The translations under genes and the position numbers were made by a program. Under the pieces are notes generated by a model. That model ran no database searches. It was not told the origin of the DNA and was given only the letters and a program-made list of their open reading frames with translations. Shown here in pieces: positions 1,860 through 3,719 of a stretch of DNA of 12,629 bases (its first letter is position 1; each line of letters opens with the position of its first letter). This DNA is from Flavobacterium psychrophilum (GTDB taxonomy: Bacteria > Bacteroidota > Bacteroidia > Flavobacteriales > Flavobacteriaceae). Location of the stretch: the NCBI GenBank assembly GCA_945897545.1, contig CAMDGJ010000064.1:1-12629 (forward strand), written 5' to 3'.

Positions 1860-2534
1860 TTATTCTAAAAGATCTGGTCGTCTGTTTTTCGTGTGTTCAA
1901 ACGCCATATCCTCGCGCCATTTGTCGATTTTAGCAAAATTTCCACTAGTTAATACTTCGGGAACTTTCCAACCTTTGTAATCCGCAGGTCTTGTGTAGAT
2001 TGGTCCAGACAATAAATTGTCCTGAAAACTATCAGTCAGAGCCGAAGTTTCGTCGCTCAAAACGCCAGGAATCAATCGTATTAATGCATCACACAAAACC
2101 AAAGCGCCTAATTCTCCGCCCGACAAAACATAGTCACCAATCGAAATTTCTTTAGTAATAAAATGATCGCGAACCCGTTGATCTACTCCTTTATAATGCC
2201 CGCACAATATAATGATATTTTCATACATCGACATAGTATTGGCCGTTTTCTGGTTCAACGTTTCCCCGTCAGGTGACATATATATGATTTCGTCATACGT
2301 TCTTTCGCTTTTCAAATGCGCAATACAATCGTCAATAGGCTGAATGTTCATTACCATTCCAGCACCGCCGCCGTAAGGATAATCATCGACACTTTTCTGC
2401 TTGTTTGTCGTGTAATCCCGTAAATTATGAAAATGTACTTCTACAATCCCTTTGTCTATGGCACGTTTCATCATCGAAGCCTCAAACGGACTTCGCAATA
2501 ATTCTGGGAGAACGGTAATGATATCTATTCGCAT
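1860..2534 (-). CDS. trmD: tRNA (guanine-N1)-methyltransferase TrmD
   Basis: TrmD uses S-adenosylmethionine to methylate N1 of G37 next to the anticodon in tRNAs, which prevents +1 frameshifting. The 224 residues fit the short Bacteroidota form (E. coli about 255). Visible SPOUT trefoil-knot motifs are YGGGAGMVM (54-62), LCGHYKGVDQRV (110-121) and IGDYVLSGGELGA (132-144). RLIPGVL (Arg153) and TDSFQ (Asp168) correspond to the catalytic-site region, and the C-terminal domain ends in KNRRPDLLE. The start at 2534 opens with MRIDIITVLPELL, the usual N-terminus. Its leader is duplicated upstream of the neighbouring toxin-antitoxin genes, so the present 5' end may have been replaced when that module arrived. 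Confidence 0.97.
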   Translation of the reverse strand: MRIDIITVLPELLRSPFEASMMKRAIDKGIVEVHFHNLRDYTTNKQKSVDDYPYGGGAGMVMNIQPIDDCIAHLKSERTYDEIIYMSPDGETLNQKTANTMSMYENIIILCGHYKGVDQRVRDHFITKEISIGDYVLSGGELGALVLCDALIRLIPGVLSDETSALTDSFQDNLLSGPIYTRPADYKGWKVPEVLTSGNFAKIDKWREDMAFEHTKNRRPDLLE

Positions 2535-2560
2535 TTTTTATTTTCTAGTTTGTAAAGGTA
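2528..2560 (-). repeat. trmD leader and -7 region, copy 1 (direct repeat with 3687-3719)
   Basis: This 33-bp stretch covers the first bases of trmD, its A/T-rich leader and a -7-like TACCTTTA. It matches 3687-3719 at 31 of 33 positions, including 25 consecutive identical bases. The match continues more weakly into the coding region (37 of 57 bases identical without gaps from the ATG). Confidence 0.8.
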
Positions 2561-2615
2561 CAAAGTTTTGGATACTGAAAGATTTTATACATAATAGAGA
2601 TTCAACGCACATTTT

Positions 2616-3065
2616 TTATAGTAATCGCTTATCCCACGCAAAATCCTCGGCACTTTGTAGCATACTATTTGTAGTAAATAAAGGATGTTTCGTGTTTATA
2701 ATGTAATTGTATTCTTTTGGAATTATGGATGAAGGGACTTTTAGTACAAGAGATTCTAAAGAATTATACCATTTTGAACCAATTTCTTGAAGTTCTATAT
2801 AAGCTTCAATTGTCATCCAATTATCGGGCAAATCTTGAATGAGAATTTCTTTAACTAGTGTGTCGTCGTTAATTGCGATTGTTAGTATTTTATAAGGCCT
2901 TGAAATATTTATAGCAGATCTGTGGACGACGGTTTCTAATGTTGATAATGATCTGCTACTGCTAGTATAAATAACAAATTCGTCTTTTTTATTCCATCTA
3001 TTTGGTGCGCCAGAAGCATTTAAGGAATGGGAATATTTTTCGCTACAAATTTTAAAAACCTCCAT
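2616..3065 (-). CDS. RES-domain toxin of a RES-Xre toxin-antitoxin module
   Basis: RES-domain proteins of this type degrade cellular NAD+ and stop growth when not held by their antitoxin. At 149 residues it is a whole RES domain. The expected polar residues are present: Arg23 in GAPNRWN, Tyr33 in VIYTS, Glu44 in STLETVVH, Ser112 in LKVPSSIIP, and Asn120/Asn124 in EYNYIINTKHP. These are the positions that form the ADP-ribosyltransferase-like active site in the family, so the toxin looks intact. It starts 2 bases after the antitoxin stop, the usual order (antitoxin first) with translational coupling likely. Tight control is expected, through a promoter upstream of the antitoxin gene. Confidence 0.9.
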   Translation of the reverse strand: MEVFKICSEKYSHSLNASGAPNRWNKKDEFVIYTSSSRSLSTLETVVHRSAINISRPYKILTIAINDDTLVKEILIQDLPDNWMTIEAYIELQEIGSKWYNSLESLVLKVPSSIIPKEYNYIINTKHPLFTTNSMLQSAEDFAWDKRLL

Positions 3066-3067
3066 AA

Positions 3068-3502
3068 TTAAACGTTGTCTCCATATTCAATAGCAGTGAG
3101 GCGATCATCGATAAATTTGATGCCAGAAATAGTATCCAAGAATTTTTTTGGTGCTTTATTGTCTAAAAAATAATTTTCAGTAACTAACCATTTATCAAAA
3201 TTTTCTTTGGACTCAAAAACAGCTGTGCCGTGTTTGTAAAGAGAAATCAATAAAACGAGATGTTCTTTGATGTTGTCTTTCGAAATACTTTCGGGTTTAC
3301 GGTAAGACCTCAAAGTCTTGGAATTTATATTAAGCCAAGTCGAAATAATTTCGTCATTCAACGTTGTTATTTCCTTTAGATAATTAAAGTATCTCCAGTT
3401 GATGTTGTTCTGTCTTAAATAAAAGAGGATTTTGGTAAAATTGCTAATTTCAGGGACTTCAGCAATAGCTTCTCCACTAATCATTTTTTCTAAAGTTGCC
3501 AT
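3068..3502 (-). CDS. Xre/MbcA/ParS-type antitoxin (DUF2384)
   Basis: This is the antitoxin partner of the RES toxin. Such proteins bind the toxin with their C-terminal DUF2384 domain and repress their own operon with an N-terminal HTH domain. At 144 residues, a helix-turn-helix-like stretch lies near 48-70 (TLNDEIISTWLNINSKTLRS). The C-terminal part has the toxin-binding pattern: GTAVFESKENFDKWL (92-106), APKKFLDTISG (117-127) and a terminal LTAIEYGDNV. ATG at 3502 lies 17 bases from a strong -7 box at 3520-3527. A palindrome at 3549-3562 is the likely operator. The HTH call rests on pattern only; the family is otherwise clear. Confidence 0.88.
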   Translation of the reverse strand: MATLEKMISGEAIAEVPEISNFTKILFYLRQNNINWRYFNYLKEITTLNDEIISTWLNINSKTLRSYRKPESISKDNIKEHLVLLISLYKHGTAVFESKENFDKWLVTENYFLDNKAPKKFLDTISGIKFIDDRLTAIEYGDNV

Positions 3503-3519
3503 AGCTTTTTATTTTTTAT

Positions 3520-3548
3520 CAAAGATAGGAAAAAATACTTATTACAAA
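3520..3548 (-). promoter_or_regulatory. Predicted promoter of the antitoxin-toxin operon (TTTG-N17-TATCTTTG)
   Basis: On the minus strand TTTG (3548-3545) and TATCTTTG (3527-3520) are separated by 17 bp, a full match to the Bacteroidota promoter. The start codon is 17 bases past the -7 box, so the leader is very short. Confidence 0.65.
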
Positions 3549-3562
3549 CGGTAAATTTACCG
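3549..3562. promoter_or_regulatory. Perfect palindrome CGGTAAATTTACCG, likely antitoxin operator
   Basis: This 14-bp perfect dyad directly abuts the -33 element of the toxin-antitoxin promoter. Xre-type antitoxins of RES modules repress their operon by binding inverted repeats at the promoter. The position and symmetry fit that role; binding is inferred. Confidence 0.55.
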
Positions 3563-3615
3563 AATATTATATCTAGATTGCATTCGCTTTTTTGTAATTT
3601 GTAGCGAAGAGATTT

Positions 3616-3719
3616 TTACGACCAAATTCCTAATGCACCTTTAAACTGATTGCGTTGTAATTTTAGTACGACTATAATGGTAGTTGTTCGCATTTTTTAT
3701 TTTCTAGTTTGCAAAGTTA
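3616..3719 (-). pseudogene. Decayed copy of the trmD promoter, leader and 5' end
   Basis: From 3719 down the minus strand reads a -7 box TAACTTTG (3719-3712), then the same leader as trmD and an ATG at 3693. It is followed by 25 codons beginning MRTTTIIVVLKLQRNQFKG and a TAA. Aligned without gaps to trmD (MRIDIITVLPELLRSPFEA), 37 of the first 57 bases and 7 of 19 residues agree; the similarity then stops. The leader itself is 31/33 identical to the trmD copy. It lies directly downstream of the DUF1569 gene, where the original trmD start would be expected if the toxin-antitoxin genes were inserted. It could instead be a short unrelated ORF behind a duplicated promoter. Confidence 0.6.

Follow-up and report, generated by a model that had tools for sequence, protein, structure and literature searches.

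As read from its sequence, a RES-Xre toxin-antitoxin pair in Flavobacterium psychrophilum is spliced into the start region of trmD, and a near relative, genome G251, keeps the uninterrupted site. The bases at the two junctions suggest that a cassette carrying trmD-start sequence on either end recombined within the trmD leader. The window, which is the whole 12,629-nucleotide stretch that was analyzed, carries on its minus strand the DUF1569 gene (4183-3740), a trmD-like promoter and start (3719-3630), the xre and res genes, a promoter with trmD (2560-1860), and rplS, in that order (Table 1). The genes at the locus are intact. An earlier reading of the same DNA, made without database searches and here termed the sequence-only reading, had placed the antitoxin and toxin genes between the two copies of the trmD start and had seen no integrase or transposase. 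The ORF positions bear out both statements: among ORFs of at least 60 amino acids between the copies, Xre and RES alone were identified, and no recombinase is encoded.

Table 1. Features of the trmD start region in the window.
Feature	Position	Strand	Basis
trmD, intact, with native 5′ codons	1860..2534	-	NF000648 and TIGR00088 above cut-off
Copy 2 of the 25-bp core (5′UTR, ATG, CGAA), before trmD	2528..2552	-	exact match to 3687-3711
Right insert end: intergenic DNA behind RES that closes with a non-native trmD-type promoter (..TATCCAAAACTTTG TACCTTTA; -7 box 2560-2553)	2553..2615	-	
RES-domain toxin gene, 149 aa	2616..3065	-	PF08808, NF049844
Xre/MbcA/ParS antitoxin gene, 144 aa	3068..3502	-	PF09722
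Probable own promoter of the pair	3520..3562	-	palindrome CGGTAAATTTACCG (3562-3549), TTTG (3548-3545), -7 box TATCTTTG (3527-3520)
Decayed trmD-like codons, left insert end, gapless to codons 3-21	3630..3686	-	33/57 with own trmD, 31/57 with G251
Copy 1 of the 25-bp core	3687..3711	-	exact match to 2528-2552
Displaced native trmD promoter (..TTTTTAGAACCC TAACTTTG), directly behind DUF1569	3712..3739	-	26/28 with G251, 26/28 with G273
DUF1569 gene, native neighbor	3740..4183	-	PF07606; 79% to G251, same place

As genes, the locus is an ordinary RES-Xre pair; the oddity is the spliced trmD start. The type II modules of this group (ParST, MbcTA, NatRT) have the same arrangement of an Xre/MbcA/ParS-domain antitoxin upstream of a RES toxin, and here the antitoxin gene lies directly upstream of the RES gene with 2 bp separating them. 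TrmD, RES and DUF1569 all scored above the Pfam cut-offs. The toxin matched PF08808 with 71 bits (cut-off 23) and NF049844 with 135 bits (cut-off 110), and the antitoxin matched PF09722 with 36.9 bits (cut-off 24.5) and reached 73 of the 90 bits of NCBIfam NF049845, which is under that cut-off. The RES matches in the PDB were ParT and RES chains; residues R23, Y33, E44, VPS 110-112 and N120 are kept in two of these alignments and may have a catalytic role. The antitoxin had no match among PDB sequences. The RES toxin NatT is described as degrading NAD+ (PMC11535050), and by family membership the toxin encoded here may do the same. The 14-bp palindrome before the -7 box of xre is perfect and is likely the operator of xre-res; a pattern scan classed it as a terminator-like stem instead.

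The repeat itself was recomputed on the minus strand. Bases 3719-3687 and 2560-2528 are identical at 31 of 33 positions in the same orientation with an offset of 1159, which reproduces the figures of the sequence-only reading. Both mismatches fall in the -7 promoter box, TACCTTTA on trmD and TAACTTTG on copy 1, and the 25 bases after the box are identical in both copies. This core occurred only at these two sites in the window, even when 3 mismatches were allowed, and in 0 of 200 shuffles; the exact core was present in 0 of 228 fetched loci. In the 57 bases after the ATG the copies share 35 identities, rather than the 37 counted earlier. The gapless alignment of the copies spans 77 nt (58/77), and sliding identity delineated a block of ~90 bp, sharply bounded at the -7 box and fading near 3635.

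The resemblance was compared with background in fetched Flavobacterium DNA. As a 90-mer, copy 1 agrees with the trmD of the window at 63 of 90 bases, its top partner among 2.1 million positions, and its best partners all are trmD starts. The best other stretch scored 49 with the trmD 90-mer as the query (2.1 million positions) and 48 with the copy, after trmD starts including L101/L154 and L102, unlabelled by the script, were set aside. For the 33-base leader the best other stretch scored 25 among 2.1 million positions, once L127, a contig end with the same sequence as the L102 leader, also was set aside. A generic flavobacterial leader is ruled out by this best value of 25/33, and the possibility that the leader stands before many unrelated genes, which would have told against the sequence-only reading, found no example above it. 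Taken alone the codon part is unremarkable database-wide, as other stretches reach 34/57; at the register fixed by the leader, 32/57 was reached at 2 of 1.55 million positions (~1e-6) and at 0 of 817 ATGCGA-like starts. A dispersed repeat containing the decayed codons also was considered and rejected. The stretch was searched as DNA in 10 and in 199 genomes, and as a reading frame in 199 genomes and in the protein database; the significant matches were trmD leaders, the others were short or at chance level, and protein homologues were absent.

The empty site is observed in two relatives. The nearest, G251 (L196, L225), matches the window at 95.8% in the peptidyl-prolyl isomerase PPI, 79% in DUF1569 and 97.6% in TrmD over 125 residues. 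Its locus runs PPI - DUF1569 - promoter - leader - trmD, and the RES-Xre pair is absent; this absence is weaker than in a complete genome because the 2.1 Mb assembly may be incomplete and the contig ends inside trmD. Its DNA is collinear with the window through PPI, DUF1569, the spacer and the leader and then runs straight into trmD. G273 (L198, L226) shows the same DUF1569-trmD junction. Thus, as the sequence-only reading had foreseen, relatives that lack the module have a single leader and a direct DUF1569-trmD junction. No RES relative was found at E 1e-3 in G251, G273, G001, G002 or G149; G072 has a RES homologue at 39%.

The trmD survey covered the best 80 of 587 Flavobacterium trmD loci, taken from named genomes. 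None of the 79 other loci had a second trmD start upstream of the gene; some have short upstream DNA, and L064, which lacks upstream DNA, was left out of the count. No module-free relative with both leaders was among them. Neither RES nor Xre was encoded upstream of trmD in any of the 80 (up to 5 kb, four loci having <1 kb upstream). PPI was in range in 34 of these 80 loci, with a PPI-trmD interval of 91 to 3972 bp. The gene content of this interval differs widely among the loci L001-L080: of the 39 ORFs found in the intervals, the 10 that were scanned gave lipocalin, L,D-transpeptidase, MFS transporters, cupin, M54 and M3 peptidases, methyltransferase, fatty acid hydroxylase and RCC1 repeats. 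A DUF1569 search of 398 genomes matched 95 at E 1e-30, and of the 30 loci examined (L195 among them) trmD lies directly behind in 12, ~1.2-1.4 kb from the DUF1569 start in 14, and is missing within the stretch in 4. DUF1569 was not found in G149, G001, G002 and G003, with G010 as the positive control, and probably was lost there. In the window, the spacer between PPI and DUF1569 can be aligned with the spacers of L040 and L041.

Set against G251, each of the two trmD starts matches the native sequence on one side of the leader and departs from it on the other, so that the two are reciprocal hybrids around an identical core. Over the 28 bases up to and including the -7 box, G251 shares 26 positions with copy 1 and 11 with copy 2 (Fisher 4e-5), although by eye copy 2 is nearer to the native promoter than the gapless 11/28 says if an 8-base gap is allowed. 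In codons 3-21 the relation is reversed, with 31/57 for copy 1 and 55/57 for copy 2 (Fisher 1.2e-7). The counterparts of the displaced promoter in G251 and G273 precede intact trmD. The copy 2 promoter agrees with that of L001 at 24/28; the last 30 bases at the right end of the insert share 24 with L001 and 23 with the L048 trmD promoter, and the best non-trmD stretch in 2.64 million positions shares 21. The likeness to L001 had made the trmD-proximal promoter a candidate for the native one, which was dropped once G251 showed the native promoter beside DUF1569. A foreign origin of the trmD 5′ codons is ruled out by the 55/57 agreement with G251. Accordingly, the proposal in the sequence-only reading that the module supplied or duplicated the promoter and 5′ end of trmD holds for the promoter and fails for the codons, which are native. 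Examined by eye, the native promoters (L225, L226 and window 3712-3739) look like the common trmD promoter of the genus less 8 bases between CTTTG words, a deletion that the copy 2 promoter lacks.

It appears from these comparisons that trmD runs from a borrowed promoter and that the native promoter is stranded before xre-res. The predicted TrmD protein is untouched: its own codons and leader are kept and the promoter is new. The -7 box consensus is given as TAHHTTTG with a nearly invariant G (PMC6847099). The present box of trmD, TACCTTTA, deviates at that G, and trmD expression therefore may be altered. The stranded native promoter has a consensus box and faces a 25-codon frame with a stop at 3618-3616, followed by xre.

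The trmD-like codons behind copy 1 probably are the left end of the module itself and not host codons that decayed in place, to judge by their divergence. Their frame is open to the TAA at 3618-3616, and the differences number 7, 9 and 8 at the three codon positions, which is no bias, like unconstrained DNA. The leader differs at 2 of 33 bases and the codons at 24-25 of 57 (Fisher 1e-4, for a split picked after viewing the data). Four-fold sites of shared genes served as a yardstick, the window differing at 147/449 from G251, at 154/301 from G273 and at 185/423 from G072; half of the G251 distance corresponds to ~19% change expected on one branch. Of the decayed codon bases 24/57 have changed, and the probability of at least 23 is 1.2e-4 to 1.9e-4 against G251 with pooled sites, 1.5e-4 to 2.3e-4 when a doubtful ORF is omitted, 0.011-0.018 with the four-fold sites of trmD itself (17/40), 0.016-0.028 against G072 and 0.14-0.24 against G273. 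If the module entered after the G251 split, the codons probably had decayed already. For an entry as early as the G273 split, the codons could have decayed in place, provided that the module was cleanly lost from both G251 and G273. The sequence-only reading had the original start displaced beside DUF1569 and decaying there. Displacement is upheld for the promoter and leader, and decay of the codons in place is not supported if counted from the G251 split, for which they look too diverged, and is not rejected if counted from the G273 split. An early estimate that favored decay in place was weakened, not removed, by the four-fold-site tests.

We consider it just about probable that Xre-RES DNA bounded by trmD-start sequence recombined in the trmD leader and gave the two hybrid starts. 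On the ancestral order, PPI - DUF1569 - promoter - leader - trmD, the incoming DNA of ~1.16 kb would have carried the Xre-RES pair already bounded by trmD-start sequence, with a trmD-type promoter at one end and long-decayed trmD codons 3-21 at the other. It would have recombined with the chromosome inside the short leader, perhaps by a single crossover in the core, the partner being either a circle or DNA from a donor strain arranged in the same way. Copy 1 then would consist of the native promoter, the core and the decayed codons, and copy 2 of the foreign promoter, the core and native trmD. The borrowed promoter would drive intact trmD, the stranded native one would point through the dead frame into xre-res, and xre-res probably would have its own promoter and operator as well. 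With the crossover in the leader both cores would be equally young, and the selection on the promoter that the sequence-only reading had suggested would not be needed. Against this account, the step in which the codons had already decayed hinges on the yardstick (G251, trmD alone, G072 or G273). Moreover, a match of 25-33 bp is short for ordinary RecA recombination, and no second genome with the cassette, free circle or donor was found, the best RES relative in 398 Flavobacterium genomes having 55% identity.

Rather unlikely, though it would fit as well, is an old insertion that duplicated the host trmD start and was later cleanly excised in G251 and G273. The duplication would be a target duplication of ~90 bp, or one end would have joined through homology and the other illegitimately; host codons would have decayed in place, with the leader kept by selection or gene conversion, and the two relatives would have lost the module by clean recombination between the repeats. 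The even spread of codon differences (7, 9, 8), the post hoc disparity between leader and codons and a divergence compatible with neutral drift since the G273 split all suit this history, but it requires separate clean losses in G251 and G273 with 25/25 identity kept in both leaders, and alone it leaves unexplained why copy 2, not copy 1, has the non-native promoter.

We think it improbable that linear DNA from a donor with a decayed start, the toxin-antitoxin pair and trmD replaced the site by two crossovers near the leader. Such replacement would give the same product without a circle in an interval that is variable (91 to 3972 bp), yet both crossovers would fall in one short leader despite the long adjacent homology of trmD and rplS, the codons right behind the core are already native, and no donor is present among the 398 Flavobacterium genomes. 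Still more doubtful is a non-autonomous toxin-antitoxin cassette with the trmD start as its attachment site: a circle of ~1.16 kb, its joint a trmD promoter-leader-codon stretch from earlier hosts, would be integrated into the leader of this essential tRNA methyltransferase gene by a recombinase acting in trans, and the new promoter would keep the host viable. Gene-end integrative elements that restore the gene, and Xer/pdif modules, have hybrid junctions resembling attL and attR, built on a short core that is the same in both. The two ends here likewise are reciprocal hybrids about an identical core, but no integrase is encoded and the core lies at the 5′ end of a gene. An assembly chimera at the 25-base repeat is very improbable: the junction is a short exact repeat seen in one contig, but the genes on either side are close to a single genome (G251, at the PPI and TrmD identities given above), and a 99% identical RES protein on another contig (P0001) backs the gene, not the junction.

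Second cases of the favored recombination in the leader were sought in other genomes. RES relatives occur in 62 of 398 Flavobacterium genomes with a best identity of 55%, and Xre relatives in 22 of 199 genomes; in a draw of 199 G251 relatives (largely the same genomes) G026 was the sole match at E 1e-35. Six RES proteins, P0001-P0006, encoded on metagenome contigs, are 85-99% identical to the one in the window. Thirty RES-Xre loci from the 62 matching genomes were examined, 4 of them without an Xre match and 2 with a 310-base left flank. The sequence-only reading had asked whether other RES-Xre modules are flanked by copies of the 5′ end of the neighboring gene. Flanking repeats rose above background at one of the 30 (L187), where they come from a many-copy dispersed repeat, and none of the 30 stretches held trmD-start sequence above background. 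At L193 (G120, 2865-6867) a RES-Xre pair lies amid copies of a dispersed intergenic repeat with 108-nt and shorter units. A truncated Xre-like antitoxin C-terminus, with 57% identity across 60 residues, lies at 4845-5057 of L157 (G066); the 10-kb stretch gave no RES match, and this may be an orphan antitoxin. Phages and plasmids were considered as carriers of the module and rejected, as no DNA matched; the core and codon patterns were absent from the viral contigs searched, and no RES relative was found in viral contigs or phages. RES relatives are carried by 1464 plasmid records, all at <60% identity.

RES-Xre modules are described as sporadic and horizontally spread in pseudomonads (PMC7280312). 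In restriction-modification insertion with long target duplication (Nobusato, 2000; Furuta, 2010), a two-gene selfish module devoid of a transposase is reported between direct target repeats of ~100 bp (PMC3874152). Here likewise a module lies between direct repeats, a block of ~90 bp at a spacing of 1159 bp, and relatives (G251 and G273) have a single-copy empty site. Both repeats are presented as target copies in that system, whereas each copy here appears to be a hybrid with a foreign half: the promoter half of copy 2 is non-native, and the codon half of copy 1 may be foreign or host-derived, depending on how old the insertion is. In Vibrio, the displacement of T6SS effector-immunity modules is proposed to occur by homology-facilitated illegitimate recombination (PMC5361080). 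There too an incoming toxin module gains its foothold in conserved DNA and some of the earlier genes are left displaced, but the DNA displaced in the Vibrio account is effector genes and here it is the promoter and start of an essential housekeeping gene.

The insertion at trmD is a well-resolved, single case from which we infer where the decayed codons came from and by which route the module recombined. It can be read base by base against an intact neighbor, with both junctions in the 25-bp core of an essential-gene leader, and amounts to a promoter swap at trmD with the protein unchanged. Both ends of the module appear to be trmD-like DNA that it brought along; should the same ends turn up in a second host, homing to the start of an essential gene would be a testable route. 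A literature search gave no paper combining trmD, attB and integrase, or combining Flavobacterium, trmD and toxin-antitoxin. At the gathering threshold, Rfam placed no element in the repeat, and its sole match was the L19-Flavobacteria ribosomal protein leader (RF03130, 41 bits) at 1654-1681, before rplS.
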